From contig CACLJX010000001.1 in assembly GCA_902607435.1 (NCBI GenBank), positions 215,289 through 279,288 on the forward strand: a stretch of DNA of 64,000 nt. Reading direction: 5' to 3'. Numbering within the stretch: position 1 is the stretch's first letter; every line of letters starts with the position of its first letter. This DNA is from an uncultured Alphaproteobacteria bacterium. Lineage in GTDB: Bacteria; Pseudomonadota; Alphaproteobacteria; HIMB59; GCA-002718135. Made by a program: the position numbers and the translations under genes. Positions 38,180 to 61,665 of this stretch are shown here, piece after piece. The notes below the pieces were generated by a model. It worked only from the letters and a program-made list of their open reading frames with translations, was not told the DNA's origin and made no database searches.

Positions 38180-38185
38180 TTTAAA

Positions 38186-43636: not shown

Positions 43637-43639
43637 ATA

Positions 43640-46027
43640 TTAAAACCTCTTTGTTTTATCTATTGTAGATAGCCATTTTTTATAATTTTTTACTGAGAAT
43701 TTTTGATATTCAATAATGTTATAATCATAAGTTCCGTCTTCTACTTTCTGCGATACATGTTCAAATTCTTCATATGTTGTGGGAACAAATTTTACTCTAT
43801 CCCCTGGTTTAAAAAGACATATGTTTTTTTCAAATACAGGAAAACTTTTTTTTGTATCCCAGATTGGAACAGGAATAATACCAAAAATTTGATAACCACC
43901 AGGTAATCTGTCTGGGTATATAGAAGTAGAAGAACCACCCATTCCTACCGTTCCTTTTGGAGTCCATGTTCTTGGTGGATTGTATTTAGGAACTGTAAGT
44001 TTGCATCTCGGATCAAGAGCCATCATAAAAGGAAGACCAGGCCAAAAACCTATAGCCGCAACCCAATATTCTGTTCCAGAATGCACTCTTACAAATTGAT
44101 CAGTACTGTCAAGATTGTTTACTTCTGTAATAAGCTCTGGATCTGATTTCTTTTTTACAATTTTGTTCGAATAATCTTCAATGCATTCTTTTGTCCACTT
44201 ATCTAGATAAACTGTAGGAAAAGAAAAAATTCTACTATTAATTTCTATATCATCAGTTGGGCCTAAAGAATCTATAAGCGATTTCATCTCATTCTTTAAG
44301 TCATTAAATTTTATTTCTTCTGGTTCATAATGCACTAACATTGAGGCAAAACAGGGTGCCGTTTCATATACGCCTTTGACTTTATGATCCTGTATTGCTT
44401 GAGCTAGATTTTGTGCAGTAAAATTAAGCTCAAGATCCATTACATTACCGAATTCAATCAGCATATATTTATCACCGCCTGGTAGAAACTTAGGTTTATC
44501 ATAAATTTCTCCAGTGATTGGTGGAACAGAAGTGGCAGAAGTTCCTTCTTTTTGTTTAGATTTTTTCTTAATAGTTGGTGTTGCTTGTGGGAGCGGAATA
44601 TTAGCTTTTTCTTTTCGAAGCTTTTCTGTGGCCTCTTTATCAACCTTAAGAGATTTAATCTTTTCTTTTTTTTCCAAAAGAAAATCTAAATTATTTTCAA
44701 CAAACTTTGTATTAAAATTAGCTTCTAGAAAAAGTTTGTTTTCCAGTACTGTTAACAAAAAAGATTTGTTTGAACTTATTCCTTCAATTTCAATTTCATT
44801 AAGTAATTGAATCATATTATTAATTGAATCATTTCTATTTTCACCTCGAGTTATCACTTTTGCTATCATGGGGTCATAATAGAAAGAAATTTCATCGCCC
44901 TCATCCACACCAATATCCAATCTGTCATTACTTGTTAGTTTGGGAATTGATAATTTTGAAATTTTTCCAGGGGAAGGAAGGAAATTTTTTGAGGGATCCT
45001 CAGCATAAAGCCTACATTCGATTGCATGTCCAGAGCGAAGTATTTTATTTTGCTGCATTGTGTAATCATTTATCTTTAATGCAAATTTAATCTGCATTTC
45101 AATCAGATCCAAACCGGTAATTTGTTCTGTCACAGGATGTTCAACTTGAATTCTTGTATTCATTTCAAGAAAATAAAATTTCTTGTTATCAACATCATAA
45201 ACGAATTCCACAGTTCCAGCGCCTTCATATTTTTGATTGGAAGCAAAATTTACAGCAAATTCAGACATTTGATTGATCGTTTCTCTCTCAATATTAGGTG
45301 CTGGGCTCTCTTCAATTATTTTTTGAAAGCGTCTTTGCAGTGAGCAGTCTCTCTCATACAAATGTATAGCTTTTTTTTCGCCATAACCAAAAATTTGTAT
45401 TTCAATGTGCCTAGCATTAGCAATATATTTTTCTAAAAAAATATCACTGTTTCCAAAAGCTTTTCCTGCTAAATTTTTTGTTTTTTCTATTACTTCTTTT
45501 AATTGATTATAGTCCTTTGCGACTTGCATTCCAATACCACCACCGCCTGCACTTGCTTTAACTAGAATTGGAAAACCTATTGTTTTGCATTTTTCTTCTA
45601 AATCTTCTTCTTCTAATTCATTTTTATTTATTCCAGGACAAATAGGGACACCACTTTCTTCAGCAAGTGTCCTTGCTGTTTCTTTGTTTCCCATCGAGAT
45701 TATTGTTTCAGGTGTTGGCCCTATCCAAACTATGCCTGAGTCTATAATTTTTTTTGCAAATTGATCATTTTCAGCAAGAAAACCATAACCCGGGTGAATA
45801 GCATCAGCATTTGTTTTCAAAGCAGCATCTAAAATATTTTTTGTCGAAAGGTAACTTTCCTTAGCTTTAGAAGGTCCTATGTATATTTCTTCATTTGCTA
45901 ATCGTACATGTTTGCTATTTTTGTCAATATCAGAATAAACAGCAATAGAGTGAATATTTAATTTTTTGCAGCATTCTATGATTCTACAAGCGATTTCGCC
46001 TCGATTGGCAATTAATATTCTTTTCAT
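43640..46027 (-). CDS. Biotin carboxylase fused to an AHS1 domain
   Basis: The protein is 795 residues. Residues 1-450 are a complete biotin carboxylase of ATP-grasp fold: IANRGEIACRII at 6-17, the glycine loop SAGGGGIGM at 159-167, and EMNTRIQVEHP at 288-298. A charged linker (about 451-505) follows. Residues 510-795 are an AHS1 (PxpB/KipI) domain that ends with the FSVKNYKKWL pattern found in urea carboxylases. Free-standing carboxylases of this type are normally about 450 residues. The fusion puts the parts of a urea carboxylase in two genes plus a separate carrier. The substrate is unknown. Confidence 0.88.
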   Translation of the reverse strand: MKRILIANRGEIACRIIECCKKLNIHSIAVYSDIDKNSKHVRLANEEIYIGPSKAKESYLSTKNILDAALKTNADAIHPGYGFLAENDQFAKKIIDSGIVWIGPTPETIISMGNKETARTLAEESGVPICPGINKNELEEEDLEEKCKTIGFPILVKASAGGGGIGMQVAKDYNQLKEVIEKTKNLAGKAFGNSDIFLEKYIANARHIEIQIFGYGEKKAIHLYERDCSLQRRFQKIIEESPAPNIERETINQMSEFAVNFASNQKYEGAGTVEFVYDVDNKKFYFLEMNTRIQVEHPVTEQITGLDLIEMQIKFALKINDYTMQQNKILRSGHAIECRLYAEDPSKNFLPSPGKISKLSIPKLTSNDRLDIGVDEGDEISFYYDPMIAKVITRGENRNDSINNMIQLLNEIEIEGISSNKSFLLTVLENKLFLEANFNTKFVENNLDFLLEKKEKIKSLKVDKEATEKLRKEKANIPLPQATPTIKKKSKQKEGTSATSVPPITGEIYDKPKFLPGGDKYMLIEFGNVMDLELNFTAQNLAQAIQDHKVKGVYETAPCFASMLVHYEPEEIKFNDLKNEMKSLIDSLGPTDDIEINSRIFSFPTVYLDKWTKECIEDYSNKIVKKKSDPELITEVNNLDSTDQFVRVHSGTEYWVAAIGFWPGLPFMMALDPRCKLTVPKYNPPRTWTPKGTVGMGGSSTSIYPDRLPGGYQIFGIIPVPIWDTKKSFPVFEKNICLFKPGDRVKFVPTTYEEFEHVSQKVEDGTYDYNIIEYQKFSVKNYKKWLSTIDKTKRF

Positions 46028-46035
46028 TTGATTCG

Positions 46036-46749
46036 TTACTTAATCGCTTTGTTTAAATTTTGAATAATTTCAATAGCATTTGGAGTATCAGAATGAACAC
46101 AAATAGTATCACATCCAACAACTGTATCTGTCCCACCTGTGTTCTTAACTTTATTTTCCGAAATTGCTCTCAGACATCTTTCTACAGCTAATTTAGTATC
46201 ATAGGGTTTGTTCTTCCCTTTAGAAATAATCAATTTACCTTCAGAATCATAATCCAAGTCAGCATAAAATTCTGCAATAAAGTCAAGATTTCTTTCTTTG
46301 TAAACTTTCTCATGAAATGTATTAACCATTCCAAAAATACTTACATTAAAAACTGCAACAGCATCCGCGATTGCGTGTGCAACCCCTTCATCTTTTGAAG
46401 CCATGCCATATAAGGCTCCATGAGGTTTGATATGGTTAAGAGGCATCCCTAGTTCATCTAAAAATGATTTAAGAGCACCCACTTGGTACATAATTAAATT
46501 TTTTAATTCATGTCTTTGTAATTTCATTTCTCTTCTTCCAAAACCCTGTAAGTCAGGCAAAGAAGGATGCGCTCCCACCTTCACATTATTTTTTTTTGCT
46601 AACTCTACTGTTTTGCGCATATGATTTGGATCTGAGGCATGAAAGCCACAAGCTACATTAGCTATATCTATTAAAGGCATAATTTCTTCATCATTTCCTG
46701 CAGAATATATGCTAAAGCTTTCCCCCATATCGCAGTTTATGTCAGTCAT
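46036..46749 (-). CDS. pxpA: LamB/YcsF family protein (5-oxoprolinase subunit A)
   Basis: The product is 237 residues, slightly below the common 250. Hallmarks are DINCDMGES at 3-11, VACGFHASDPNHM, the GAHPSLPDLQGFGRR block near 57-71 and VKPHGALY-like IKPHGALYG. PxpA acts with PxpB and PxpC to open 5-oxoproline to glutamate using ATP in characterised bacteria. Here its partners are of urea-carboxylase type. It is the first gene of the minus-strand operon and is divergent from the ABC importer genes across a 193-base region. Confidence 0.85.
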   Translation of the reverse strand: MTDINCDMGESFSIYSAGNDEEIMPLIDIANVACGFHASDPNHMRKTVELAKKNNVKVGAHPSLPDLQGFGRREMKLQRHELKNLIMYQVGALKSFLDELGMPLNHIKPHGALYGMASKDEGVAHAIADAVAVFNVSIFGMVNTFHEKVYKERNLDFIAEFYADLDYDSEGKLIISKGKNKPYDTKLAVERCLRAISENKVKNTGGTDTVVGCDTICVHSDTPNAIEIIQNLNKAIK

Positions 46750-46942: not shown

Positions 46943-48145
46943 ATGAAAATAATTAAACTTTTAATCGCTTTTTTTGCTGCGTATTTTGTTACTCTTGTTA
47001 GTAATGTTTATGCACAAGAATTGTGCGAAGAATGTTTAGCTAATGTTCCTGAAGACATGCGAGATTATGTTTACAACATGGACTACATGGATAAGGATCA
47101 ACCTTTGGGACCTACAGTCATGAGAGACTGGAAGAGCCCAAGCAAGCCGCCTTGGACGATTGGTTATGCTAGCACATATGCTGGTAATACTTGGCGTAAA
47201 GGTGCAATGGAGCGTTTAATGGAAGTTGTACTTCCAAAATGGAGAGCGCTTGGTATGGTTGATGATATTCTAATTACTCAATCTAATTTAGATGATTCTT
47301 TGCAGATTCAACAAATGAGACAAATGATTGATGGAGGTGTAGTTGATGCCATTATTATCTGCTGTTCAAACTTAACAGCACTTAATAAAACAATTGAATA
47401 TGGTTGGAGTAAAGGTATCCCGACACTTTCTTTTACAGGTTTCACAACCTCGCCAGTTTCAATCAATACATCAGTTAATTACCGACTAGTTGGTGTTTAT
47501 ATTGGTACATGGCTGGCAGAACTAATTGGTGAAAAAGGAAATGTAGTAGTCATGGATGGAATTCCTGGTTATTCTGCATCTGACCAACAGAGTGATGGAA
47601 TGCTAGCAGGTTTAGCAATGTATCCTGACATAACAGTTGTTGGACATTTAGCTCATAACTGGACATCGCAAGTTGCACAGAAAGAGCTGTCGACATGGCT
47701 TGCATCTCACCCTGAAGAAATACATGGTATTGCTGTTCAATCTTCAGGCGAGACTGGAACTTTACAAGCATTACTTCAGTCTGGACGTGATCCAATTCCG
47801 CCAATTGCATTAGGTGGAGAACTTGGTGCATTATGTTATTGGAGACAAAACCCTGATTATATTGATGAAGCAATTTATGCATGGCCTCCGGGCGATGAAA
47901 TTCAATTGGGTTTTGAGGTTATGATGCGTACACTTCAAGGTCAGGGACCAAAGATTCAATCAATATTGGTTGGTCCTGCAACAAAGAGTTTTGATGATAT
48001 CGCAGCAGTTTTAGATGAAGATTGTGATAGAAACTCTACGGGTTGGGATAATCCTGGACTTGAAAATTGGGCACCATCATCGTATGTAGATGCTTTCTTT
48101 GAAAGACCAGCTGATCCTACAAAATACGATCCAAGCTCACATTAA
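46943..48145 (+). CDS. Periplasmic substrate-binding protein of a CUT2-type ABC importer
   Basis: The product is 400 residues. A signal peptide (about 1-24, MKIIKLLIAF... ending NVYAQ) targets it to the periplasm. The mature protein is a type I periplasmic-binding fold (RbsB/LacI-like), with the family pattern IDGGVVDAIIICC near residue 133 and KGIPTLSFTGF near 156. Two extra features are the N-terminal Cys pair ELCEECL and a C-terminal tail (residues about 355-400) with DEDCDRN. It has the strongest ribosome-binding site of the gene set. The ligand cannot be inferred; sugars are typical of this family. Confidence 0.88.
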   Translation: MKIIKLLIAFFAAYFVTLVSNVYAQELCEECLANVPEDMRDYVYNMDYMDKDQPLGPTVMRDWKSPSKPPWTIGYASTYAGNTWRKGAMERLMEVVLPKWRALGMVDDILITQSNLDDSLQIQQMRQMIDGGVVDAIIICCSNLTALNKTIEYGWSKGIPTLSFTGFTTSPVSINTSVNYRLVGVYIGTWLAELIGEKGNVVVMDGIPGYSASDQQSDGMLAGLAMYPDITVVGHLAHNWTSQVAQKELSTWLASHPEEIHGIAVQSSGETGTLQALLQSGRDPIPPIALGGELGALCYWRQNPDYIDEAIYAWPPGDEIQLGFEVMMRTLQGQGPKIQSILVGPATKSFDDIAAVLDEDCDRNSTGWDNPGLENWAPSSYVDAFFERPADPTKYDPSSH

Positions 48146-48165: not shown

Positions 48166-49935
48166 ATGAGTGAAAGTGAAAATATAATCGATAACACCTC
48201 TAAAAATGAGGTGTTATCAAATACAAAACAATCTGGTGTCGGCGATATATACGTCCAAGATGTTCACAAATCTTTTGGTGTTACTAAAGCATTAGATGGA
48301 GTGAATTTTAGTGCAAATTTTGGTGAGATTCATGCCATTGTTGGCCCCAATGGCTGTGGGAAAAGCACTCTTGCTAAAGTACTTTCAGGAGTCTTGCCAA
48401 TTGATAAAGGCAAAGTTTCTGTTTTGGGACACTTCCCTACTTCTCCGGTGATGGCACGTGATTTAGGGATTGCTACAGTCTTTCAGGAAGTAATGATAGC
48501 CGATGAAGCTTCTGTCGTGGACAACTTATTTATCGGCTCTGATGATTTTTGGTATAAATCTTTAACACATAGAGAAAAAATCAAAAAAGCTGAAGAGCTA
48601 ATGGAGGATCTCGTAGGTGAGTATATAGATCCAAATACACTAGCAATTAATTTATCTTTGCCAATTAAAGCATGGATTACAATTGGAAGAGCATTTTTGC
48701 GAGATAATACAAAAGTGTTAATTCTTGATGAGTCCTCAGCTGCACTTGATTTTGATTCAACAGAAAGATTGTTTAAAAAAATGAGAGAATTTCGTGATAG
48801 TGGCATGGCTGTATTTATTGTTACTCATCGAATAGCAGAATTAATACGTATAAGTGATAAAGCAACAGTCATGAGAGACGGTGTTGATGTCGGTGTTCTG
48901 GACAAAAATGATCTTAATGAAAAAAATTTATTAAGTTTGATGACAGGAAAAGTTGTATCTGGAGAAAAATCTAAAGACGTTGCTCTACAGACAAAGAGTG
49001 ATAAGGTTGTAATAAGAGCCAAAGATTTAGTTGTCTGGCCAGAAAGTGTGCCTGTAAATTTAGAAATACATAGAGGGGAAATTATAGGTGTTACAGGATT
49101 GGATGGCAATGGTCATGACGATTTTGTTAAAATTTTAGCAGGTGTTCAAGAATCTCATGGGGGAACAACAGAAGTCTTAAATATCAATGACAAATTTGTA
49201 AAATATAACACCTTAATGGAAGCAAAAGAACTCGGAATTTCTTTTGTATCAGGTGATCGTAAAAAAGAAGGAATACTGCCTAATCTAAGTATTTATGAGA
49301 ATATGGTGATACCCCTTTACCGCACAACAAGCAGGGCTGGTTTTTTAGGATTTATTAATTGGTTAGAGTTAAACGGTGTGTATGAGTGGGAATTGGATAG
49401 ATTAAATATTAAAACTGGTTTTAAATCTGATTTGGTTACTTCACTGAGCGGAGGTAATCAGCAAAAGGTTATGATAGCAAGGTCTTTTGGTCAACATCCG
49501 AAAATATTGATTCTCAACGATCCAGCAAGAGGTATTGATGTTAATACAAAAACGGATTTGTATCTTCACTTAAGAAAATATGTTGAAGAAGGTAATTCAG
49601 TTGTTTTTTTATCGAGCGAACTAGAAGAATTTATCGGGCTTTGTCCAAAAGTAATAGTGTTTAGACACGGGTCTGTATTTGATATTTTCGAAAATGAAAA
49701 AGTTAATGCTGATACTTTGCTTCAAGGTATGTTTGGTCAAACCCAAGGCTTAGGCTCAACTAGTGTTAGCAAATCAAATAATACAAGCATTTCAGAAAAA
49801 TTAAATGATACCAATACTAATTTAAGAAATGTAGATGCCTCGGATAAAAAAATTATAAAAATTGTAGATTTTGATAAAGAAAAAAAATTGAGAGAAGAGA
49901 ACATACTAAAGAAAATAAAAGTAAAATCTTTTTAA
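48166..49935 (+). CDS. Double ABC ATPase of a CUT2-type importer (RbsA/MglA-like)
   Basis: The 589-residue protein has two ABC domains. The first (about 25-265) has Walker A GPNGCGKST at 60-68, Q107, and Walker B with D188 and E189. Its signature segment is LSLPIKAW at 163-170 instead of an LSGGQ-like sequence. The second domain (about 280-525) has a degenerate Walker A (GLDGNGHDD at 311-319) as usual for the family, an intact LSGG at 427-430 and Walker B replaced by N451, D452. A linker and a tail (from residue 540) follow; the last 27 residues match the end of the next gene product. Only the ATG at 48166 gives a plausible start. Confidence 0.88.
   Translation: MSESENIIDNTSKNEVLSNTKQSGVGDIYVQDVHKSFGVTKALDGVNFSANFGEIHAIVGPNGCGKSTLAKVLSGVLPIDKGKVSVLGHFPTSPVMARDLGIATVFQEVMIADEASVVDNLFIGSDDFWYKSLTHREKIKKAEELMEDLVGEYIDPNTLAINLSLPIKAWITIGRAFLRDNTKVLILDESSAALDFDSTERLFKKMREFRDSGMAVFIVTHRIAELIRISDKATVMRDGVDVGVLDKNDLNEKNLLSLMTGKVVSGEKSKDVALQTKSDKVVIRAKDLVVWPESVPVNLEIHRGEIIGVTGLDGNGHDDFVKILAGVQESHGGTTEVLNINDKFVKYNTLMEAKELGISFVSGDRKKEGILPNLSIYENMVIPLYRTTSRAGFLGFINWLELNGVYEWELDRLNIKTGFKSDLVTSLSGGNQQKVMIARSFGQHPKILILNDPARGIDVNTKTDLYLHLRKYVEEGNSVVFLSSELEEFIGLCPKVIVFRHGSVFDIFENEKVNADTLLQGMFGQTQGLGSTSVSKSNNTSISEKLNDTNTNLRNVDASDKKIIKIVDFDKEKKLREENILKKIKVKSF
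48190..48218 (+). repeat. Hairpin inside the start of the ATPase gene
   Basis: GATAACACCTC (48190-48200) pairs perfectly over 11 bases with GAGGTGTTATC (48208-48218) around the loop TAAAAAT. It starts 24 bases after the ATPase ATG and encodes part of the poorly conserved N-terminus. No T-run follows. Along with the hairpin at 48141-48163 it forms two consecutive stem-loops at the boundary. Confidence 0.7.
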
Positions 49936-50606: not shown

Positions 50607-52925
50607 ATGGCATTAGTAGACAAAATAAAACATGGCTTTAGAACAAGCGGAGATACTGGAGTTCATAAATATCTCATGGTTCCAATCTTTATGTTTTTTG
50701 CTCTATTAATTTTTGCCCTTATTAGAAGTCCGATAATAATTTCACCTTCAGGCATAGGTAGTGTTATTATTCTCACTGCACCGCTAATATTGGCTACTTA
50801 TGCTTTAACTATAATTGTAATGGCAGGTCGAGGGGGTGTAGATTTATCCATTGGACCCTTTATGGGCTTTATTAATGTCAGCCTTATTTCATTGTATGCT
50901 CATGGCTATTTGCAGCATCCAGTTAGTTTTTTTATTTATGCAATAGGCATAGGTGTAATCTACCAAATATTTTTTGGAATGATTGTAGTGTTTGTTAGGG
51001 TCCAGCCAATTATTATCGCTTTAGCAGGGTATTTAGCTTTTACGGGTATTAACTTGGTCATTTTATCACGACCTGGAGGTGTAGCACCGGACTGGATCGA
51101 GCCATGGGGTGCCGGCATAACGATATTTAATGAAATATTACTGCTATTAATTTTAGCAACAATCTTCTTTTATCTAATCACTCATACCGCCTTTTGGGGA
51201 CACCTTAAACTGATGGGAGCGGATGAGCGAGCTGCTTTTACTAGTGGTGTGAAGATTAATTGGGTGAGGATTGTAGCTCATGCAATAGCCGGAATATTTG
51301 CAGGTTTATCTGCGATATCATTTACCGCACTAATAGGTTCTGGCGATCCCATACAAGGAACAAAATATACCCTTCTTGGTGTGACAGCCTTGGTGCTGGG
51401 AGGGGCCAGTCTTGTCGGTGGTAGAGGAGGAGCTTTTGGTGCTATTTTAGGTGCTCTTATTCTTTATTTAATTAATTATAGTTTAGTTACGTTCCAATTT
51501 GAAAGACTGCAAAGTTTTGTCTCTGATTTATCTTATGGTGGAGTGCTTGTGATAGCTTTATTGATAAGCTTAACACTTCCTTTTGTACAAAGAATTACAA
51601 AAAATTTGTCTGTTTTTGTTTTTTTTATTCTTATGTCAATTGCTGGTTTGGCCGTTATTGTTCATACGACGCAGGATATACCGATTGCTGAAGAAAAAGT
51701 ACTTACAACAGAAGACTACACTGGAACACAGTATGAAAGATCTACTGTTGTTCGCAAATTAGATGCAACGGGAAATATAATTGTGGAAGGCGATGCAGCA
51801 ACAACTACTGGGGAAGGTACTGCACAAGGAGGTTCATTAGCTGGACACTCTATTGTTATTGTTAAAGATCCAGGAACAGTAGTTTTATATGTGATTCTTG
51901 GCTTGGCTGGCTTGGCGTATCTTGGTACTTTGCTTGCCAGAAATCGAGACGCCACGACAACGTGCTTTGCACTTATAGTGGCTGTTATAGTTGTGGGATT
52001 AATATTTGATCCTGACAGCAAACAAAGTGAACCTCAAATTGAACAAGTAAACTTACACTCCAACCAAAGCACTATAGAAAATTTTTCGCCTCAATATTTT
52101 AGTCTTGAGAAAATTGATTTTGTTTCAAATATTTCTTCTAACGCGAGTTTGATTGTTAGCTCGACTTACAGTTTGATTTATATAGTAGGAACCATTCTGC
52201 TTACTTCTTTAATTGTCATGGTTATGTTGCCTCAATTTAGCACAAGAGTAAAAGCAACTGCTATGCTTTTATTTACTACCGCTTTAACAATCGTTCTACT
52301 AGGAGGTATATCTTATTATAATTTAGGCGATAAGGTTGATAACAGTCTTTTTGGTCTGCAGGGATATGGTATTATATTAGTAGGCTTACTTCTTTTTGTG
52401 ATTACAGCTCCTTTTGTTCATTCAAATATTGCGAACTTGACCAATATTTATATTTTTGGACTTAGTGTTTTAGCTATTCTTGCTGTCTATTTTTTAGCAG
52501 GTAATACCAGTATGTCTACTGATCCAGCTCTTTATCAATCCCAGATTATAAGTGAGTTGCAGATTGGTGATTTTTCACAAATTGCATATGGCGAGCCAGT
52601 AAGGCATTTTAATCCAGGTATATCGCCTATTGCACAGTTTGCTTATAGCGCACTTGTAATTTTTTTATTTCAGTATTTTGTCTTTATAGCTATGAATCAA
52701 GAAAATAGATTTAATCGTTTTGCACCTTTTATGTATATAGTTATTTGTGCTGGTTTTTTGTGGTCAGCAATGTTTTACGCAGTTGGATATCCTTTATATA
52801 AAATTGTAGTAGTATTGATTGTAGGTCTTCCAATTACTCCTTTAGTATGGCAATTTTTCGGCGTTTATTTAAAGAAACTATCACGAGACAGACAATTAAG
52901 CCAATGGGCTGAAGAGGGGAAGTAA
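50607..52925 (+). CDS. ABC permease (RbsC-like) with a large C-terminal membrane extension
   Basis: The product is 772 residues, more than twice the usual permease. Residues 1-330 form a standard BPD_transp_2 permease: VMAGRGGVDLSIGP at 71-84 and the coupling-helix region KLMGADERAAFTSGV at 201-215, followed by GGASLVGGRGG at 265-275. Residues 331-772 add about ten further predicted spans and two soluble loops (355-420 and 465-520). I do not recognise the extension. The gene starts 17 bases after the repeat protein and precedes the second permease by eight bases. Confidence 0.85.
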   Translation: MALVDKIKHGFRTSGDTGVHKYLMVPIFMFFALLIFALIRSPIIISPSGIGSVIILTAPLILATYALTIIVMAGRGGVDLSIGPFMGFINVSLISLYAHGYLQHPVSFFIYAIGIGVIYQIFFGMIVVFVRVQPIIIALAGYLAFTGINLVILSRPGGVAPDWIEPWGAGITIFNEILLLLILATIFFYLITHTAFWGHLKLMGADERAAFTSGVKINWVRIVAHAIAGIFAGLSAISFTALIGSGDPIQGTKYTLLGVTALVLGGASLVGGRGGAFGAILGALILYLINYSLVTFQFERLQSFVSDLSYGGVLVIALLISLTLPFVQRITKNLSVFVFFILMSIAGLAVIVHTTQDIPIAEEKVLTTEDYTGTQYERSTVVRKLDATGNIIVEGDAATTTGEGTAQGGSLAGHSIVIVKDPGTVVLYVILGLAGLAYLGTLLARNRDATTTCFALIVAVIVVGLIFDPDSKQSEPQIEQVNLHSNQSTIENFSPQYFSLEKIDFVSNISSNASLIVSSTYSLIYIVGTILLTSLIVMVMLPQFSTRVKATAMLLFTTALTIVLLGGISYYNLGDKVDNSLFGLQGYGIILVGLLLFVITAPFVHSNIANLTNIYIFGLSVLAILAVYFLAGNTSMSTDPALYQSQIISELQIGDFSQIAYGEPVRHFNPGISPIAQFAYSALVIFLFQYFVFIAMNQENRFNRFAPFMYIVICAGFLWSAMFYAVGYPLYKIVVVLIVGLPITPLVWQFFGVYLKKLSRDRQLSQWAEEGK

Positions 52926-52933
52926 AATAGTTT

Positions 52934-54352
52934 ATGAAAAGATCTGCATTTCTTTTTTTTAAAGCTTTGGGATTATTATTTGCTATCCTAGTTGGCATAG
53001 GCACTGCCGTGTTAGGATGGTTTGATGCAGCAGATTGGATCAATATTGTTTTTTATTCCATGGCTACCAGTGCATTAGTTTTATGGGGCTGGCATCATTT
53101 TTCTATTCGCTGGATTCACAGTGATCTCAAGCAAGATATCTTTTCCCAGGTTACGAAAAAAGAAAAAATTGATACGGAAGAGATTACACACGAAGAAGCA
53201 GATGAAGAAAATTTCTTTTTTAGAATTATTAGTCAATACAAATGGGCGCTCGGAGGGTTTCTTCTACTAATAGCTATTTTTATTTTTGTTTCATTTATTG
53301 TCGAAGGTTTCTTTTCTGGTCGAACATTAGTATCTTTTTTAATATTTTTAGGCTTTATTATTTTAGCTTCTGTAGTAGGTAGCTATATTACAGTTCAAAA
53401 AAATGTATTTATTGGTATTTGCGTTTTAATAGGATTATTTATTATAGGATCTCTGACCATACCAGGGTTTCTTTCTATTCTTAACATGAAATCCATGTTG
53501 GTCTTTGCTGCTTTTTTAGGTCTAGCCACAATAGGACAGACACTTGTTGCTCTATTAGGAGGACTTGACTTATCAATTCCCTTTATCATAGGGTCTTCTA
53601 ATATAGCTTTGATGTCGATGATTTCTAAAGGTGTGCCACCCTGGCTTGCAGGTCTTGTAGTATTACTATTCGGTTTGGGAGTAGGTTTAATCAATGGTAT
53701 CTTGAGTTTTCGACTTCAAGGCCAAGCATTAATATTAACACTGGGCGTAGGATTTTTCATGGTTGGAGGCGTTCAAATTCTTGTAGCAATGAATACTTTT
53801 TCAGCTGGCACTGTTTTTGGGGTTGTACCGGACTGGATGAGAAATATTGCTTCTATGAACGGCAAAACTATAGGACTACCCATTCCTCCTGTAATTATTA
53901 TTTGGATTGTATCTGCACTAATTATAATTATTGGTCTTCGATATACAAAATGGGGACGAAATTTGTATGCACTTGGAGGAAATCGTTTATCTGCAGAGCG
54001 GTTATCTATTTCTGAAAGAGCGTATTGGGTCGGTGTCTATGTCATTAGTGGCTTTTTTTCAGCATTGACAGGAGCATTACTTCTTGGCTGGAGTGGTGGA
54101 GGATTTGTTGGTGTTGGCGATACCTATTTATTTTTAACTCTTGCAGCAGTTGTTGTTGGAGGTACTTCCTTACTTGGTGGTTGGGGCGGTTACGGCCTAA
54201 GTGTTATAGGTGTATTAGTTTTACAAGTCCTCAATACAACATTAATAGGATGGGGTTTAAGCTTTGAAGGACAACAATTTATTTTGGGTCTTTTAATAAT
54301 ACCTATGGTTGCATTATATGCTCGATCGCCACATATTAGGACTTTAGTTTAA
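52934..54352 (+). CDS. ABC permease (RbsC-like) with an N-terminal extension
   Basis: The product is 472 residues. The core permease domain is in the C-terminal 310 residues, with VALLGGLDLSIPFIIG near 204-219 and GGTSLLGGWGGYG near 412-424. An N-terminal part of about 160 residues adds roughly four or five spans and a charged cytoplasmic loop (EKIDTEEITHEEADEEN, about 76-92). The two permeases probably form a heterodimer on the double ATPase. Its TAA stop overlaps a possible 42-codon ORF by one base (TAATG). Confidence 0.86.
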   Translation: MKRSAFLFFKALGLLFAILVGIGTAVLGWFDAADWINIVFYSMATSALVLWGWHHFSIRWIHSDLKQDIFSQVTKKEKIDTEEITHEEADEENFFFRIISQYKWALGGFLLLIAIFIFVSFIVEGFFSGRTLVSFLIFLGFIILASVVGSYITVQKNVFIGICVLIGLFIIGSLTIPGFLSILNMKSMLVFAAFLGLATIGQTLVALLGGLDLSIPFIIGSSNIALMSMISKGVPPWLAGLVVLLFGLGVGLINGILSFRLQGQALILTLGVGFFMVGGVQILVAMNTFSAGTVFGVVPDWMRNIASMNGKTIGLPIPPVIIIWIVSALIIIIGLRYTKWGRNLYALGGNRLSAERLSISERAYWVGVYVISGFFSALTGALLLGWSGGGFVGVGDTYLFLTLAAVVVGGTSLLGGWGGYGLSVIGVLVLQVLNTTLIGWGLSFEGQQFILGLLIIPMVALYARSPHIRTLV

Positions 54353-54480
54353 TGAAATATTTTTCAAGTATAATAATTTTATTAACAAGTTTATTTCATA
54401 ATACGAAATTTTACTTTAAATTTTACTACAAAAATATATTTTCCAATTTCTTTTTGTTAGGTTTAGTCGAGTATGAATAA
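54352..54480 (+). CDS. Possible 42-residue membrane peptide between permease and rhodopsin
   Basis: The reading frame starts on the permease stop (TAATG) and ends inside the start of the rhodopsin gene, overlapping it by eight bases. The product would be hydrophobic and aromatic (starting MKYFSSIIILLTSLF and ending FFLLGLVEYE), about one or two membrane segments. It has no recognisable family. It may be a real small protein, a leader peptide that couples translation to the rhodopsin, or chance in AT-rich sequence. Confidence 0.3.
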   Translation: MKYFSSIIILLTSLFHNTKFYFKFYYKNIFSNFFLLGLVEYE

Positions 54481-55174
54481 ATTATTGTTTCCTCAAGATG
54501 TAGTTGGTGGTTCTTTTTGGTTAATCTCAGTGGCCATGATTGGCGCAGCAATATTTTTCTTTTTAGAAAGAGGAAGGCTATCAAAAAGATGGAACACTGT
54601 TATGACTCTGGTAGGGGTGATAGCCTTAATGTCTTCCATACATTATTTTTATGCGAAAAATTTATGGGTGATGAATGGACAAGCTCCCATTGCCATAAGA
54701 TACATTGATTGGACCCTAACTTTTCCTCTTCAAATATTAACTTTTTACGTAATGCTTACAGCGGTGACTGATGTGAAAAGAGGCATGTTTTGGCGTTTAC
54801 TCGTAGGTACACTTGTTTGGGTAATTGCACAGTTTTTAGGTGCCTCAGGTTACATGAGCGTCACACTTGGCTTCTTAGTTGGTATAGTTGGCTGGCTGTA
54901 TATTATTGGGGAACTGTATATGGGAGATGCAGGAAGAAAAAATGCAGCATGTGGTAATGAGCATGTTCAAATGGCATTTTTTGCAAATAGATTAATTATT
55001 ACCATTGGATTTTCTATCTACCATATTGGGTATTTTATTGAACATCTGGGAGGAGGCGTCAATATTAGTAGCCTTAATGTAATTTACAATCTTGGAGATA
55101 TATTAAATAAAATTATATTTGGAATGGTAATCTATGGCGCCGCTTCCCAAGATACAAAAAAGAGTGGTCTATAG
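54473..55174 (+). CDS. Microbial rhodopsin (proteorhodopsin-like) with a DTT motif
   Basis: The product is 233 residues with seven predicted spans. Alignment to proteorhodopsin needs no gap in helix C: RYIDW gives R76 and D79 (counterion), T83, and T90 where proton-pumping proteorhodopsins have the donor glutamate. Q87 occupies the spectral tuning site, where glutamine marks blue-absorbing forms. H57 (partner of the counterion), D209 and retinal lysine K213 are conserved. Helix F differs: F180 replaces a tryptophan and H184 the usual proline. Ion and direction are therefore uncertain. No retinal biosynthesis gene is in the window. The gene follows the permeases and precedes the SPFH gene. Confidence 0.93.
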   Translation: MNKLLFPQDVVGGSFWLISVAMIGAAIFFFLERGRLSKRWNTVMTLVGVIALMSSIHYFYAKNLWVMNGQAPIAIRYIDWTLTFPLQILTFYVMLTAVTDVKRGMFWRLLVGTLVWVIAQFLGASGYMSVTLGFLVGIVGWLYIIGELYMGDAGRKNAACGNEHVQMAFFANRLIITIGFSIYHIGYFIEHLGGGVNISSLNVIYNLGDILNKIIFGMVIYGAASQDTKKSGL

Positions 55175-55222
55175 ATGACATTAGAATTAATTAGATATAT
55201 GTTAAGTAGGAGGAATATTTAA
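55175..55222 (+). CDS. Possible 15-codon leader ORF between rhodopsin and SPFH gene
   Basis: An ATG follows the rhodopsin stop directly (TAGATG), 15 codons read through MTLELIRYML, and the stop shares its last base with the SPFH ATG (TAATG). The AGGAGG box at 55208-55213 lies within it. It is probably a coupling element, if it is translated at all. Confidence 0.2.
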   Translation: MTLELIRYMLSRRNI

Positions 55223-57213
55223 TGACTAGAGGAGCAGATATAATAGCAGTAATAATTCTGATTGCACTAGCTATAGCAGTCATAGTTTATTTATTACATT
55301 GGTTATACAGAAGATCTTCAAAAGAAGTTTCATTTGTTCGAACTGGAATGTTTGGTGAGAAAGTTGTTATCAGCGGAGGTGCTTTTGTCTTACCTATCAT
55401 TCATAATATCACTCAAGTAGGTATGCGTACATTAAGTTTAACTATAAAAAGATCGGGTGATAAATCTTTAATTACAAAAGATAGAATGAGAGCAGAGTTA
55501 GTTACAGAATTTTATACAAAAGTTCCACCTGAAAAAAAATCTGTTTCAACTGCAGCTCAAACCTTGGGTAACAGAACCCTTGATCCTGAACATTTAAGGG
55601 AAGTAGTCCAAGGTCGATTTGCTGATGCTCTTGGAGAAGTAGCTGCGAATATGACATTAGACGAAATACAAGAAAACAGAGGACAATTTGTTAAAGAAGT
55701 TACAAAGATTGCAGACGAGTCTATTGGACACACTGGTCTAGCTTTAGAAACTGTTTCTATGATATCCTTAGATCAAACACCAATTGAGCAGTTTAACCCA
55801 GCAAATACTTTTGACTCTCAAGGCCTAACTCAATTGACAGAACAAATTGAAGCTAGAAAGAAAAAAAGAAATGATATTACTCAAGACACAAAAATTTCAA
55901 TTGAAAATAAAAACTTAGAAACTATTCAGAAAGAATTAGAAATTAAAAAAAATGAAGAATTTTCAAGATATAAACAAGAAAGAGAAATTGCTATACAGAA
56001 AGCGAACGAAAGAACAGAGACTATAAAACAAAGGTCAGAGAGAGAACGTGAGGCTGAAGAAGCAGAAATAAGAAGTCAAGAAGAAATTGAAGTAGCAAAA
56101 ATATCTCAAAATCAAGTTATTGAAGTTGAAAGAAGATTAACTGAAACAAGACTAATTGAAGAAATTGAAAAACGTAGAAGAGAGCAAAATGATTTAGAGC
56201 AAAATGCAGCTCTTGATATTAGGCAAAAAAATCTTGACACAGAGGTCAAAATTTTGAATTTAGATAAAGAAAGTGAGTATGCTCGTTTAGAAAAACAACG
56301 TTTAGTTGATATTAAAAAGGCCCAAGAAAGAGCAGAAATTATCAAAGAACAAGCAGAAAGACAACGTGATTCAGAAGAAGCACAAATCATATCTGAAGAA
56401 CAAATAAAAAACGCAAAAATAAGTCAGCAAAAAAACGTTGATGCTTACCGTATTTCTGCAGAAAAAGAAACGAGACTGCTTGATATTGAGAAAGCAAAAA
56501 GATTAAAATTAGAAGAGCATCAAAAAGAACTAGAAATTATAGATAAATCGAAAGCTGTACTTAAATCAAAAGCTGAAGAAGAGGTTGCAAGGGCTAAAGC
56601 CGTTGAAGCTGAAGAAAAAGCAAATTCAACTCGATATATTGAAAAAGCGCAAGGTATAAAACAAGTTGATGTAATCTCTGCAGCTTCAAAAGCAGAACAA
56701 GATAAACATTCAACTTTGGCTGCAAAGTTAAGATATGAAATTGATGCAGCTGGTAAGAAAGCTTTGAATACAGCTGAAAATCTCAGAAGTGATGCAAGTA
56801 GGAGAAGTGCCTTACGTTTGAAACTTGCTGATAAAATTGAATCTATTATCAGAGAAAGCGTTAAACCAATGGCAAATATTGGCGATATTAAAATTGTTGA
56901 TGTTAATGGCCTTCCAGGCTTTAGTGGTGGCAATCCTGATGGTGGAAATGCAGTTGGAAGTAGTGGAGGAAGAGGTGACAGCACTGGAAGAAGTGGTAAC
57001 TTAGCTGATAGTGTTGTGAACTCTGCTTTGCGCTATAGGGCTCAACAACCTTTCCTAGATAGTCTCTTGAAAGAAATAGGCATGAACCCAGGTGAGATTA
57101 GTAATATTCGTAATATTTTAGGTGACTATGATAATCCAAAAAAAGATTTTCATATGAATTTTGATAAAGACCCTACAAAATCAGTACCAAGTAGAAAAAA
57201 TCCTAAAAAATAA
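55222..57213 (+). CDS. SPFH/flotillin-like membrane protein (YqiK type)
   Basis: The product is 663 residues. One N-terminal span (about 7-28) anchors it. The SPFH domain is at about 36-200 (FGEKVVISGGAFVLPIIHN near 44-62). A long coiled coil follows. Residues 213-318 and 319-424 are a gapless tandem duplication with a period of 106, seen in NKNLETIQ/QKNLDTEV and in VAKISQNQ/NAKISQQK. The C-terminal part has a Gly-rich linker (about 566-592) and a basic end. Flotillins organise membrane domains and oligomerise. The usual NfeD partner is not adjacent. The AGGAGG box upstream is strong. Confidence 0.85.
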   Translation: MTRGADIIAVIILIALAIAVIVYLLHWLYRRSSKEVSFVRTGMFGEKVVISGGAFVLPIIHNITQVGMRTLSLTIKRSGDKSLITKDRMRAELVTEFYTKVPPEKKSVSTAAQTLGNRTLDPEHLREVVQGRFADALGEVAANMTLDEIQENRGQFVKEVTKIADESIGHTGLALETVSMISLDQTPIEQFNPANTFDSQGLTQLTEQIEARKKKRNDITQDTKISIENKNLETIQKELEIKKNEEFSRYKQEREIAIQKANERTETIKQRSEREREAEEAEIRSQEEIEVAKISQNQVIEVERRLTETRLIEEIEKRRREQNDLEQNAALDIRQKNLDTEVKILNLDKESEYARLEKQRLVDIKKAQERAEIIKEQAERQRDSEEAQIISEEQIKNAKISQQKNVDAYRISAEKETRLLDIEKAKRLKLEEHQKELEIIDKSKAVLKSKAEEEVARAKAVEAEEKANSTRYIEKAQGIKQVDVISAASKAEQDKHSTLAAKLRYEIDAAGKKALNTAENLRSDASRRSALRLKLADKIESIIRESVKPMANIGDIKIVDVNGLPGFSGGNPDGGNAVGSSGGRGDSTGRSGNLADSVVNSALRYRAQQPFLDSLLKEIGMNPGEISNIRNILGDYDNPKKDFHMNFDKDPTKSVPSRKNPKK

Positions 57214-57218
57214 ATCTT

Positions 57219-57608
57219 ATGAGTGCTGAAATAGAAAATTGGGCGAAAAAATATGAAGAACTTACAAATAGTGACGATACTATTGGTGCAATGGCAAAAT
57301 ATTACACGTGTTCCTTCATGTTTGATATGGAAAAAGCAAAAGTTATAATAGAAATGCATGACGGGAAAGTAAAAAAAATTAATACTAACCCTGCACCTCT
57401 TGATCCGTATGATTTTGCTCTACGAGCTTCAGCTCAAACATGGCGGGAGTTTGGTCAGCCAATGCCCAAACCCATGTATCATGGAATTTGGTCTGCGAGT
57501 TTTCAAAGAGACTTAAAGATTGAAGGTAATCATCTTGTTTTAATGCAAAATTTAAGAAATTTTACAGTACAATTCGAACTCTTAAGAAAATCGGGAGTCC
57601 CTGTATAA
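57219..57608 (+). CDS. SCP2-like sterol/lipid-binding-domain protein (tentative)
   Basis: The 129-residue protein has no signal peptide or span. The pattern of an SCP2-type fold is visible: a beta segment VIIEMHDGKVKKI (about 42-54), the DPYDFALRASAQTWREF region (about 62-78) and a C-terminal GNHLVLMQNLRNFTVQFELL helix (about 103-122). SCP2-like proteins bind hydrophobic ligands in a tunnel. The match is by pattern only and is weak. The gene begins five bases after the SPFH gene. Confidence 0.5.
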   Translation: MSAEIENWAKKYEELTNSDDTIGAMAKYYTCSFMFDMEKAKVIIEMHDGKVKKINTNPAPLDPYDFALRASAQTWREFGQPMPKPMYHGIWSASFQRDLKIEGNHLVLMQNLRNFTVQFELLRKSGVPV

Positions 57609-57636: not shown

Positions 57637-58491
57637 ATGGTAAAGCATCATGATGTAATTGGGCGTTATGTTACAATTGAAGTTGACGATTGTGAGTACA
57701 AAGTTTTTTATCTTCAAAATGGAAAAGGTATACCATTAATATGCCAGCATACAGCTGGATGTCATAATCATCAATGGAGAGGACTACTTGAAGATGAGGA
57801 AATTCTTAAAAAATACAATGTGATTGCTTATGATTTACCAAGGCACGGTAAATCAGATCCTCCTCATAATAAAGAATGGTGGAAAGAAGAGTATAAACTT
57901 ACAGCTGAACACTATTGTAATTTTATTGTTAAATTATGTGCTGCTCTTGATTTAAATAATCCAATATTTATGGGCTCCTCATTTGGAGGAAACATAGCTT
58001 TACAGCTGGCTTTGCGGCATCCAAATAAATTTAAAGCAGTTATTCCTGTTGAGGCGGCTGATTATGCACCAGGGTTTTATTTGGATTGGTGGCGTCATCC
58101 TCATGCAAATGCTGCGCAAGTATGTGCAAGTGGAGTGTGGGATCTTATGGCACCTCAATCTCCTAATATGGATAGATGGCTAACCTGGCATTATTATTCT
58201 CAGGGTTCAGAAGCTTTTAAAGGAGATCTATATTTTTATTCTGTTGATCATGATTTAAGAAAGGAATTACAGAATATTGATGGAAGAAAATGTCCTGTAG
58301 TGATGTTAACAGGCACATATGACTATCTTACTCCACCAGAAGCAACAGAAAATACAGCACGTCAAATTAAAGGAGGGGTATATATTGAAATGACAGATAT
58401 AGGACATTTCCCTATGAGTGAAAACCATGAAGTTTTTCGTGTTTATTTGATGGAGGCACTTCGAATAATAGAAGAAAAAACAAACAACTAA
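57637..58491 (+). CDS. Alpha/beta-hydrolase
   Basis: The product is 284 residues with no signal peptide. The nucleophile elbow is GSSFGG with S115, the acid D229 in GTYDYL and the histidine H257 in DIGHFP. The oxyanion region HTAGCHNHQWRG is near residues 38-49. The family includes esterases, amidases and C-C hydrolases. Its location directly before the amidohydrolase genes suggests a linked step, such as ester or amide hydrolysis. The substrate is unknown. Confidence 0.85.
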   Translation: MVKHHDVIGRYVTIEVDDCEYKVFYLQNGKGIPLICQHTAGCHNHQWRGLLEDEEILKKYNVIAYDLPRHGKSDPPHNKEWWKEEYKLTAEHYCNFIVKLCAALDLNNPIFMGSSFGGNIALQLALRHPNKFKAVIPVEAADYAPGFYLDWWRHPHANAAQVCASGVWDLMAPQSPNMDRWLTWHYYSQGSEAFKGDLYFYSVDHDLRKELQNIDGRKCPVVMLTGTYDYLTPPEATENTARQIKGGVYIEMTDIGHFPMSENHEVFRVYLMEALRIIEEKTNN

Positions 58492-58532: not shown

Positions 58533-58940
58533 ATGATTAAAGAAAAAACTGGGGTACAAATAAACGCTGCACATACTCATACTGATGATTTCATAACTAA
58601 GAAATACGTCTTGCCTTTATTAAGAGATGAGGAAACAAGAAATAGACTAATTGCTGAACACAAAGCTACCCCGGTTGGAAGGGCACCTCATAAAGGGAAC
58701 CCGGCTATTGAACATAGCAAAGACCTTCAAACTGTTCTTGACAAGTTAAGAAGGCAGCCGATGGTTGGAAAATACATAACTATTTGTAAGAAAGATTTTA
58801 AAGATTACAGAATTGGAATTTGTAGTGGTGTTCGAGGTCAGCCTGTTGAGATATTAGAAGATTCCTTTTCTTCTGAAGAGGCTTGTGAACATGCAATTTT
58901 TCTTAAAAGAATTTCTGAATTGTTGGAGAAATACACATAA
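58533..58940 (+). CDS. N,N-dimethylformamidase-like small subunit
   Basis: The 135-residue product is close in size to the small subunit of N,N-dimethylformamidase (about 130 residues). The segment RRQPMVGKYITICKKDFKDYR (split: RRQPMVGKYI at about 80-89, DFKDYRIGI at 96-104) and the end SFSSEEACEHAIFLKRI (about 115-131) follow the family pattern as I remember it. Its stop codon overlaps the large-subunit start (TAATG). The large subunit supplies the active site; the small one is thought to be structural. The identification depends on the pairing. Confidence 0.7.
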   Translation: MIKEKTGVQINAAHTHTDDFITKKYVLPLLRDEETRNRLIAEHKATPVGRAPHKGNPAIEHSKDLQTVLDKLRRQPMVGKYITICKKDFKDYRIGICSGVRGQPVEILEDSFSSEEACEHAIFLKRISELLEKYT

Positions 58941-61297
58941 TGCTGCGTATTACTGGTTACAGTGATAAATATTCAGTTCATCCTGGAGAAAAGGTAAAGT
59001 TTTATATTAATTCAGAAAGCAATGAAAATTATGAAGTACAGATTGTACGGTTGATACATGGTGATACAAATCCTGAAGGACCTGGATATAAAGAAGAAGA
59101 ATTAGGCGCTAGTTGCAATGGCAACTATGAAGGAAAAAATCAAAGAATACATGGTGGTTCATATGTAATTATATCACAGGATGACCGTATGAATGTAGAG
59201 AGTTTTACTTTGCAGGCATACATTTTTCCTACTACCCCTGATAAGGGTAAACAAGGAATACTTACAAAATGGAACGAGACAAATAGTTCAGGTTATGGAC
59301 TCTTTGTTGATGACGACAGTTGCTTAAGTTTGATGATTGGCGATGGTGATGGACAAGTCTTTAAAATTTCAAGTGAAAAAAAACTAATGAGAAAAGTTTG
59401 GTATCTAATAGCTGCTAGCTTTGATGCTGAAACCGGTAAAGTAATATTATATCAAGAGCCAACAGTAACTCCGACGAATGGTGGCTTAGGAATGTCTTTG
59501 TTACATCCAGCAGACGAAACGAGCGCTATTGTTGAAAGTTCAAATAATATCAAGCCTGGGAAAAACGACTCTCCATTACTAATGGCAGCTTCTACAGTTG
59601 TTGATCGTTCTGGGAGGTATATTACAGGTGGTCATTATAAAGAAGCGCTTACTCCTGTAGAATTACCAGAACAGGGATTTGTTTATAATGGAAAAATAGA
59701 TAGACCAAGATTAAGCAACAAAGCTCTATCGAAAGATGAAATTAAAAATTTAGCTAGTGGTTATGGAGGCTGCACTTCTGATCTTAGAATAAAAGTAGTA
59801 GGCGCATGGGATTTCCATGCAAATATAACTAACAATATTGCCTCTACGTTTATTGTAGACTTGTCTCCAAGTCATCTAAATGGTTTTATTGTTAACTTAC
59901 CCTGTAGAGGAATGACTGGCTATAATTGGACAGCAGATGATATAGTTTATCACCACAAGCCAGAAGAATATGGTGCAATTCATTTTCATGATGATGATAT
60001 AGATGACGCTAGATGGGAAGTAGATTTTGTTTATGAAGTACCAGACAAAATTAGAAGTGGTGTTTATGCTGCAAGATTAAGAATAAATGGTGATGATTCT
60101 TCGGAGACAGAAGATTTCGTTCCTTTTGTTATAAAACCTCCTAAAGGTAAAGCGACTTCTAAATTAGCTTTAATCGTTCCTACAAATAGCTACTTGGCTT
60201 ATTCAAATGATAACTTAGGAACAAACTCAGTTGTTGCCCAGTTACTTGCAGGAAAAGTTCCTGTTTTGGCAGCATCAGATTTATATTTAAATGAACATAG
60301 AGAATATGGATTGTCTACATACTCTCTTCATTCAGATGGAAGTGGTGTTTGTTATTCTTCACGACTTAGACCAATTCTAAATATGCGACCGAAATACAGA
60401 CACTGGCTATCTCCATCTTTATGGCAATTAAATGGAGACTTGCATTTGACAGACTGGCTTGAAGAAAAAGGTTTTGAATTCGATTGTTTAACTGATGAAG
60501 ACTTGCATATCGAAGGGGTCGAATTGCTTAATAGATATCAATGTGTACTTACTGGATCACATCCTGAATATAGTTCAGAAAAAATGCTGGCTGCTTACGA
60601 AGCTTATCAGCTTCAAGGTGGAAGGTGGATTTACCTAGGTGCTGATGGTTTTTATTGGGTAAGCGAATATCATCCTGATAATCCAAATATTATTGAAGTT
60701 AGAAAAGGCGAGGCAGGTACTAGAGCTTGGACGGCTAATCCCGGAGAATATAATAATGCATTTGATGGAAAATATGGAGGTATGTGGCGAGCACGAGGAA
60801 GAATTCCAACAAAAGTTTGTGGGTTAACCTTTACGGCTTATGGATTTGACGTTTCTTCATACTATAAAAGATCAGACGATAGTTTCAAACCAGAATGCTC
60901 TTGGATATTTGAAGGAGTTGGTCCTGATGAAAGAATAGGTGATTTTGGTTTAGTTGGTGGTGGTGCAGCTGGTTTAGAGCTAGACAGATATGATCTTGAA
61001 TTTGGAACACCTCACAACGCATATTTGCTTGCTCAGTCAGAAGATCATACAAACTTAATGTTACAAGTTAACGAAGAAATACATTTTTCTGTAAGAGGTT
61101 ACTATGGCGGTGGTACAGAAAATCCAATGGTAAGAGCTGATATGATTTACTACAAGACCCCCAATGATGGTGCTCTATTTGCACCCGGGTCTTTGTCATG
61201 GTGCGGTAGTCTTTCTTATAATAGCTACAATAATAATGTATCCAAAATTTTAGAGAATGCAATTAATGGATTTTTAAAAGAAGGACCACTTCCTTAA
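58940..61297 (+). CDS. N,N-dimethylformamidase-like large subunit
   Basis: The 785-residue product matches the size of the large subunit (about 760). Residues 85-270 carry a laminin-G/concanavalin-type beta-sandwich (FTLQAYIFP at 89-97, WYLIAASFD at 154-162). The C-terminal half has the catalytic domain, with LIVPTNSYLAYSND at 411-424, GSHPEY at 539-544 and GGRWIYLGADGFYW at 560-573. Characterised enzymes bind one iron through two tyrosines and a glutamate; Y421, Y461 and E543 lie at similar spacing, but this is not checked. The substrate may be another amide. No signal peptide is seen, so it is cytoplasmic. Confidence 0.75.
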   Translation: MLRITGYSDKYSVHPGEKVKFYINSESNENYEVQIVRLIHGDTNPEGPGYKEEELGASCNGNYEGKNQRIHGGSYVIISQDDRMNVESFTLQAYIFPTTPDKGKQGILTKWNETNSSGYGLFVDDDSCLSLMIGDGDGQVFKISSEKKLMRKVWYLIAASFDAETGKVILYQEPTVTPTNGGLGMSLLHPADETSAIVESSNNIKPGKNDSPLLMAASTVVDRSGRYITGGHYKEALTPVELPEQGFVYNGKIDRPRLSNKALSKDEIKNLASGYGGCTSDLRIKVVGAWDFHANITNNIASTFIVDLSPSHLNGFIVNLPCRGMTGYNWTADDIVYHHKPEEYGAIHFHDDDIDDARWEVDFVYEVPDKIRSGVYAARLRINGDDSSETEDFVPFVIKPPKGKATSKLALIVPTNSYLAYSNDNLGTNSVVAQLLAGKVPVLAASDLYLNEHREYGLSTYSLHSDGSGVCYSSRLRPILNMRPKYRHWLSPSLWQLNGDLHLTDWLEEKGFEFDCLTDEDLHIEGVELLNRYQCVLTGSHPEYSSEKMLAAYEAYQLQGGRWIYLGADGFYWVSEYHPDNPNIIEVRKGEAGTRAWTANPGEYNNAFDGKYGGMWRARGRIPTKVCGLTFTAYGFDVSSYYKRSDDSFKPECSWIFEGVGPDERIGDFGLVGGGAAGLELDRYDLEFGTPHNAYLLAQSEDHTNLMLQVNEEIHFSVRGYYGGGTENPMVRADMIYYKTPNDGALFAPGSLSWCGSLSYNSYNNNVSKILENAINGFLKEGPLP

Positions 61298-61665
61298 TGA
61301 GCAATGCATCAATTATTAAACCTGAGGGAACAGATGGAAAGGCAATACTAGGTTCCGACAAAAATTCATCACTCAATATTCTTGAGAAAAATGCTTTCAA
61401 AAATCTTGATATGGATAAAATGAATGATTTAGCTGAATGTTTGTTTGTACTTAATAATAGAAGATATGGTCCAATTCCAGGTGCTTATATGGTAATGTGT
61501 ACAAAACCAGGAAAAGAATGGTGTGTTGGTCAGTTGAATGCAGATAGAGCTAAACCATTTGTTTTATTTGAAGATAAGGTTTTTTCATCGTCTGAAGAAG
61601 CTCAAAAAGAAGCAGAAAGAATTAAGAAAGATCGAGGTGAATCAGCTCCTAGGCGTTGTACTTAA
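61297..61665 (+). CDS. Second small-subunit-like protein
   Basis: The 122-residue product is unannotated by me, but its second half resembles the small subunit at 58533. PGAYMVMCTKPGKEWCVGQ (about 67-85) pairs with GKYITICKKDFKDYRIGI, and FEDKVFSSSEEAQKEAERI (about 91-109) with LEDSFSSEEACEHAIFLKRI. It starts on the large-subunit stop codon. It could be a paralogous small subunit, a regulator or an alternative partner. No signal peptide is seen. Confidence 0.55.
   Translation: MSNASIIKPEGTDGKAILGSDKNSSLNILEKNAFKNLDMDKMNDLAECLFVLNNRRYGPIPGAYMVMCTKPGKEWCVGQLNADRAKPFVLFEDKVFSSSEEAQKEAERIKKDRGESAPRRCT

Follow-up and report, generated by a model that had tools for sequence, protein, structure and literature searches.

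A DTT-type flotillin-associated rhodopsin with an altered and conserved retinal pocket in an alphaproteobacterial importer gene cluster

Results

The rhodopsin gene and its neighbours

The stretch of DNA analysed here (64,000 nucleotides from an uncultured alphaproteobacterium; hereafter the window) contains a rhodopsin gene between genes for an ABC importer and a flotillin gene. The genes considered are listed below.

36098..39889, minus strand: caprolactamase subunits alpha and beta (CapA, CapB; NCBIfam NF050156, 1198.9 bits, and NF050157, 1062.8 bits; cut-offs 1000)
42509..46749, minus strand: PxpC-like protein (PF02626), biotin carboxylase-PxpB fusion (PF02682, PF02785, PF02786) and PxpA-like protein (PF03746)
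46943..48145, plus strand: ABC importer substrate-binding protein (PF13407, 125 bits), kept in SAR11, f2 and g71 clusters
48166..49935, plus strand: ABC importer ATPase of sugar-importer type with two ABC domains (PF00005; best NCBIfam relative YtfR, below its cut-off)
50607..52925, plus strand: ABC importer permease 1, 772 aa (PF02653, 68.1 bits)
52934..54352, plus strand: ABC importer permease 2, 120 nt upstream of the rhodopsin gene (PF02653, 79.9 bits)
54473..55174, plus strand: flotillin-associated rhodopsin (FArhodopsin, FAR), 233 aa, ATG start, seven helices, no N-terminal signal-peptide extension
55222..57213, plus strand: flotillin, 663 aa, 47 nt downstream of the rhodopsin gene (PF15975, 100.3 bits; PF01145, 42.2 bits)
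57219..57608, plus strand: p129, a conserved 129-aa protein and core FAR gene (no Pfam or PDB match; 72–91% identity across FAR loci)
57637..58491, plus strand: alpha/beta hydrolase, core FAR gene (PF00561, 78 bits; 84–93% identity across FAR loci)
58533..58940, plus strand: 135-aa protein upstream of the dimethylformamidase-like gene (no Pfam match; present in SAR11 and f2 FAR loci)
58940..61297, plus strand: N,N-dimethylformamidase beta-subunit-like protein (PF20254, 313 bits)
61297..61665, plus strand: 122-aa protein without family assignment, present in SAR11 and f2 FAR clusters

The open reading frame at 54473–55174 scored 88.9 bits for PF01036 (Bac_rhodopsin; cut-off 24.6), and its top match among solved structures was the flotillin-associated rhodopsin PsFAR (PDB 9r21; 310 bits, as compared with 205 bits for the top pump). 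An AF2 model built from 58 sequences (pLDDT 89.9, pTM 0.87) was used for the fold only, an earlier one from 13 sequences (pLDDT 51) having been discarded; a Foldseek search with this model again returned PsFAR as the best match by fold (TM 0.94). In a maximum-likelihood tree, a single branch with support 100/99 split the FAR proteins from 40 DTE pumps, and the window rhodopsin fell within the clade holding PsFAR and the SAR11/HIMB59-type FARs. A first-pass annotation of the window had left room for a phylogeny that returned the protein to the ordinary DTE pumps; it lies outside them at the support given. The motif D79, T83, T90 (DTT) fits the FArhodopsin criterion of DTT, DTL or DNI, and the adjoining flotillin gene, which the first-pass annotation does not mention, identifies the rhodopsin as a FArhodopsin. 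Judged by its sequence, the protein is thus a DTT-type FArhodopsin, a member of a family already described and not a new rhodopsin type: a description of the DTT group appeared in 2018, and the name FArhodopsin followed in 2023 (Haro-Moreno 2023, PMC10308929). What the window adds is a member that has glutamine at the colour-tuning site and whose host, judged by rpoB, lies outside SAR11.

Wherever an examined FAR locus extends far enough, flotillin adjoins the rhodopsin; this holds for SAR11, for the g71 genomes described below and for f2, a family of the host's own order that is presumably HIMB59, since its D-N-I motif is as published for that group. The spacer between the two genes is 47 nt in the window, as against the published 16 (PMC10308929). 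The published FAR cluster comprises an importer, a dimethylformamidase, Pxp-like proteins, an alpha/beta hydrolase, a Na+ symporter and an Fe-dependent alcohol dehydrogenase (PMC10308929), and most of its genes are present around the window rhodopsin; these surroundings include a reading frame (61972 onward) judged symporter-like by inspection and not by profile, together with an Fe-dependent alcohol dehydrogenase. Flotillin, p129 and the hydrolase were kept with the rhodopsin in every group, and the importer genes in every cluster read far enough, permease 1 being the least conserved of them. Even in g71, the FAR group that diverges most, the importer and the hydrolase accompany the rhodopsin. 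The most deeply conserved set consists of the importer, rhodopsin, flotillin and hydrolase genes, which appears to be a new observation.

The Pxp-like genes are divergent from the importer and also occur in SAR11 and f2 FAR clusters. Among them, the gene at 43640–46027, between the PxpA- and PxpC-like genes, encodes biotin carboxylase fused to a PxpB-type carboxyltransferase domain; its product may act on an amide or lactam, using ATP and biotin. The caprolactamase genes were considered as core FAR genes and rejected: CapAB was not found near FAR in genomes G525 and G092 or in g71, and was seen only in the cluster of this genome. With Pxp-like and dimethylformamidase-like genes nearby, they suggest that this marine host uses lactams or amides. 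A scan for promoters and terminators gave results no better than shuffled sequences, and a search for a viral or phage origin found no match.

The host and the transfer of the cluster

In rpoB, the window shared 79–83% identity with genomes of family f1 and 79% with the partial gene of SAG-MED31; for the f2 genomes of its own order the value fell to 61%, and for SAR11 single-cell genomes to 58–61%, so that a SAR11 host was rejected. Two observations concern the compared genomes themselves: SAG-MED31 (G522, L002) is labelled Pelagibacterales, yet its rpoB is as close to the window as that of family f1, and three independent SAR11 genomes (G528 L153, G523 L154, G525 L155) show between one and three stop codons within the rpoB match.

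The cluster genes gave the following identities to SAR11 and f2, respectively: rhodopsin about 87% and about 67%, flotillin 84% and 64%, substrate-binding protein 78% and 56%, importer ATPase 76% and 58%. A topology grouping the FARs of the host's order together was rejected (AU p 0.0005), which rules out vertical inheritance of FAR within that order. Since rpoB is far from SAR11, the cluster genes are closest to SAR11 and the AU test rejected the common grouping, the cluster moved between SAR11 and the host lineage, implying a transfer of a SAR11-type cluster between orders, which may have run in either direction and appears to be new.

Residues of the retinal pocket

The window protein was aligned with GPR, Med12 (4jq6), PsFAR and about 86 fetched rhodopsins. 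The numbering of the GPR reference was checked against known residues. The alignment was gapless through helices C and F, as the first-pass annotation had it, and all the residues named there (D79, T83, T90, Q87, F180, H184, D209 and K213) were correct. The N terminus is 18 residues shorter than that of GPR, so that D79 aligns with GPR D97. Counts below refer to 45 SAR11-type FARs, window included.

54707..54709, plus strand: D79, Schiff-base counterion position (GPR D97); D in 43/45, E in 2/45
54719..54724, plus strand: T83 (GPR T101) and F84 (GPR V102; H84 in PsFAR); F84 in 45/45
54731..54733, plus strand: Q87, colour-tuning position (GPR L105)
54740..54742, plus strand: T90, replacing the proton donor E108; 45/45
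54818..54820, plus strand: W116, replacing GPR M134; 45/45
54830..54832, plus strand: Q120, replacing GPR G138 (E120 in PsFAR); 45/45
55010..55012, plus strand: F180, replacing GPR W197; 45/45
55022..55024, plus strand: H184, replacing GPR P201; 45/45
55097..55111, plus strand: D209 (GPR D227, second counterion) and K213 (GPR K231, retinal-binding lysine), both kept; 45/45

R76 (GPR R94) and H57 (GPR H75) are likewise intact, and the carboxylate donor at position 108 is absent. The results showed that positions 102, 134, 138, 197 and 201 are V, M, G, W and P in every DTE pump fetched and F, W, Q, F and H in the window protein. The altered pocket proposed earlier was thus borne out for F180 and H184, but F84, W116 and Q120 had been overlooked; these also line the pocket, which changes the interpretation. 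F84 would be expected to project into the pocket. Structure 9r23 is, by its PDB title, an H84V/E120G double mutant of PsFAR, changed at the sites of window F84 and Q120, which we read as a sign that the depositors also regarded both as important; the literature searched gave no reason for the mutations. The site of Q87 varies among the SAR11-type FARs (T, Q, S or I, mostly T). The two glutamates at the counterion site belong to loci L030 and L040.

The closest relatives, the Pelagibacterales DTT FArhodopsins (SAG AG-390-L03, SAG AAA288-N07), are 85–89% identical, have the same DTT motif and the same F84, W116, Q120, F180 and H184, and share with the window cluster the tandem flotillin and the dimethylformamidase-like, Pxp-like and importer genes. 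The window differs from them in having Q instead of T at the tuning site, CapAB, importer permeases directly upstream, and a host rpoB only 58–61% identical. PsFAR (9r21; mutant 9r23) has about 60% identity, the same fold (TM 0.94) and a place in the same clade, but its motif is D-T-M, it keeps the helix F tryptophan and proline, and it has H84 and E120 where the window has F84 and Q120. The HIMB59-type FArhodopsins (D-N-I; f2/g7) are 66–68% identical and, with their tandem flotillin and the same cluster core, come from the host's order; they have N at 101, I or V at 108 and W197 and P201 kept, and the window protein groups elsewhere (AU p 0.0005). The blue and green proteorhodopsin pumps (4jq6, GPR; 41–48% identity) have in common with it the fold and D97, T101, R94, H75, D227 and K231, whereas the window protein has no donor E108, five changed pocket residues and no signal-peptide extension.

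Selection on the altered pocket

Across the 45 SAR11-type FARs, 163 of the 233 positions were invariant. Because the pocket substitutions are identical in all 45, they are due neither to chance nor to sequencing error. The median dN/dS (omega) was 0.032 over 127 unsaturated pairs; five pairs of DTE pumps gave about 0.04 to 0.09. A decaying pseudogene, or a passenger of a mobile cluster, might be suspected in a cluster that has moved between orders, but the low omega, like that of working pumps, and the invariant positions contradict decay and make such a reading hardly credible. The altered pocket is a maintained state under strong purifying selection.

Deep-branching FARs in genomes without a detected pump

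A class-wide search found a divergent FAR (51–53% identity) in the genus g71 of family f66, whose genomes are 3.7–4.5 Mb in size. It formed the first branch inside FAR, the remaining FARs being held together at 100/98. Its motif is D-T-T, D-T-V or D-T-I; V102, M134, W197 and P201 are pump-like, G138 is replaced by A and W159 by G, and the gene order is importer, rhodopsin, flotillin, p129, alpha/beta hydrolase. In xanthorhodopsin, the glycine at the W159 position opens the fenestration for the carotenoid antenna. A glycine at the antenna site is not sufficient alone (PMC3646047).

In six of the seven g71 genomes (G494, G324, G417, G550, G551 and G552; loci L129–L132, L102–L104 and L205–L207), which are 95–97% complete, FAR was the sole PF01036 match. 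Apart from freshwater contigs, published FARs come from three marine taxa with streamlined genomes, in each case alongside a true proteorhodopsin (PMC10308929); g71 appears to be an exception to this rule, and a new one. The exception bears on the hypothesis that FArhodopsins are silent partners that form hetero-oligomers with the DTE pump of the cell in flotillin microdomains and adjust it (PMC10308929). Proteorhodopsins do form oligomers, such as the hexameric 8cqd, and of the 27 genomes to which SAR11-type FAR loci led, 19 have a second rhodopsin. On the other hand, the six g71 genomes have no other PF01036 protein, and the host genome (G000), though only 84% complete, gave a single PF01036 match, so that a pump-adjusting role seems quite unlikely. 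Carriers without another detected rhodopsin weaken the idea that FArhodopsins assist a proton pump.

Retinal binding and retinal supply

The first-pass annotation had expected retinal binding from the intact lysine and aspartates. These persist and leave some room for retinal binding, but with larger or polar residues at five pocket positions and relatives that are pigmentless in Escherichia coli, retinal binding by the window protein cannot be assumed from its sequence. The missing donor carboxylate that it had noted stands; its slow pump, other ion or sensor is no longer the leading reading. A proton pump that binds retinal, is driven by light and completes its photocycle slowly or without a donor would be in keeping with the intact D79, T83, R76, H57, D209 and K213, and donor-less DTG-type proteorhodopsins have reportedly been treated in the literature. 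Nevertheless, we regard it as very unlikely in view of the five pocket substitutions and of the behaviour of the DTT-T proteins, which in E. coli gave neither a retinal pigment nor a light-driven pH change, and whose DTT-T residues abolished activity when put into functional pumps (PMC5864233). The failure in E. coli may reflect misfolding or missing flotillin (PMC5864233, PMC10308929). In AlphaFold models, conserved FAR residues were predicted to clash with all-trans retinal (PMC10308929).

A further point against a pump is that no retinal-forming enzyme was found in the host genome, only 84% complete. As a sign of a retinal-free protein, this finding was dropped; genomes G001, G002 and G004 gave the same result. 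These three, of family f1, carry ordinary DTE pumps and had no match to Blh, phytoene synthase or RPE65 at 90–93% completeness. Most SAR11 and f2 carriers have a second rhodopsin together with the retinal enzyme Blh, which makes the presence of retinal in their cells probable. Blh was found in 1 of 15 genomes with FAR only, as against 26 of 31 SAR11 and f2 genomes with FAR plus a pump; we made no use of this link, which is confounded by genome incompleteness and by the linkage of pump and Blh. Blh was absent from the g71 genomes, where RPE65-family oxygenases are present.

The possibility exists that the protein binds retinal as a light sensor or photoswitch controlling the importer or the flotillin microdomain. 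The lysine and counterions are conserved in 45/45 or nearly so, and FArhodopsins are reported from photic and twilight waters and are co-transcribed with flotillin (PMC10308929). It is unlikely, however, that the protein is such a sensor, since the pocket appears occluded, no transducer gene was found in the cluster and the lysine is absent from most freshwater FArhodopsins (PMC10308929).

Discussion

We consider it fairly probable that the window protein is a retinal-free or retinal-restricted membrane component that works with flotillin and the ABC importer, and not a light-driven pump. The substitutions in helices C, D and F would occupy the room that the polyene and ring of retinal need, and with that space filled there would be no normal all-trans-retinal photocycle and no light-driven pumping. 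The small membrane protein, made together with flotillin, would sit beside the importer of the cluster in a membrane microdomain and would organise or regulate the uptake of the cluster's substrate. This substrate is plausibly an amide or a lactam-like (cyclic amide) compound, a guess drawn from the amide- or lactam-directed catabolic proteins encoded nearby (dimethylformamidase-like, Pxp-like and CapAB). The lysine and aspartates that remain may have a part in the fold or in binding a ligand other than retinal.

Several observations argue against a retinal-free protein. K213, D209 and D79 are nearly or strictly kept, which is hard to explain for a protein that never forms a Schiff base, and the more divergent FARs (f2, g71 and PsFAR) keep W197 and P201, so that the occlusion is not uniform. 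The caveat on expression in E. coli and the probable presence of retinal in most SAR11 and f2 carriers, both noted above, count on the same side. The one line pointing to a link between rhodopsin and importer is synteny. More tentatively, and with some doubt, FArhodopsins at large may be proteorhodopsins whose scaffold now serves, independently of light, in a nutrient importer and flotillin module, inherited as a block across orders and, in the genus g71 with its genomes of about 4 Mb, without any proton-pumping rhodopsin.

The function of FArhodopsins is a question posed in 2018 and again in 2023. The present locus adds constraints to it, namely five pocket residues fixed under strong selection, two of them at the sites of the PsFAR mutant, a transfer of the entire cluster between SAR11 and a lineage outside SAR11 by rpoB, and a carrier group in which no other rhodopsin was detected. 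The conserved importer gives FArhodopsin a testable partner.
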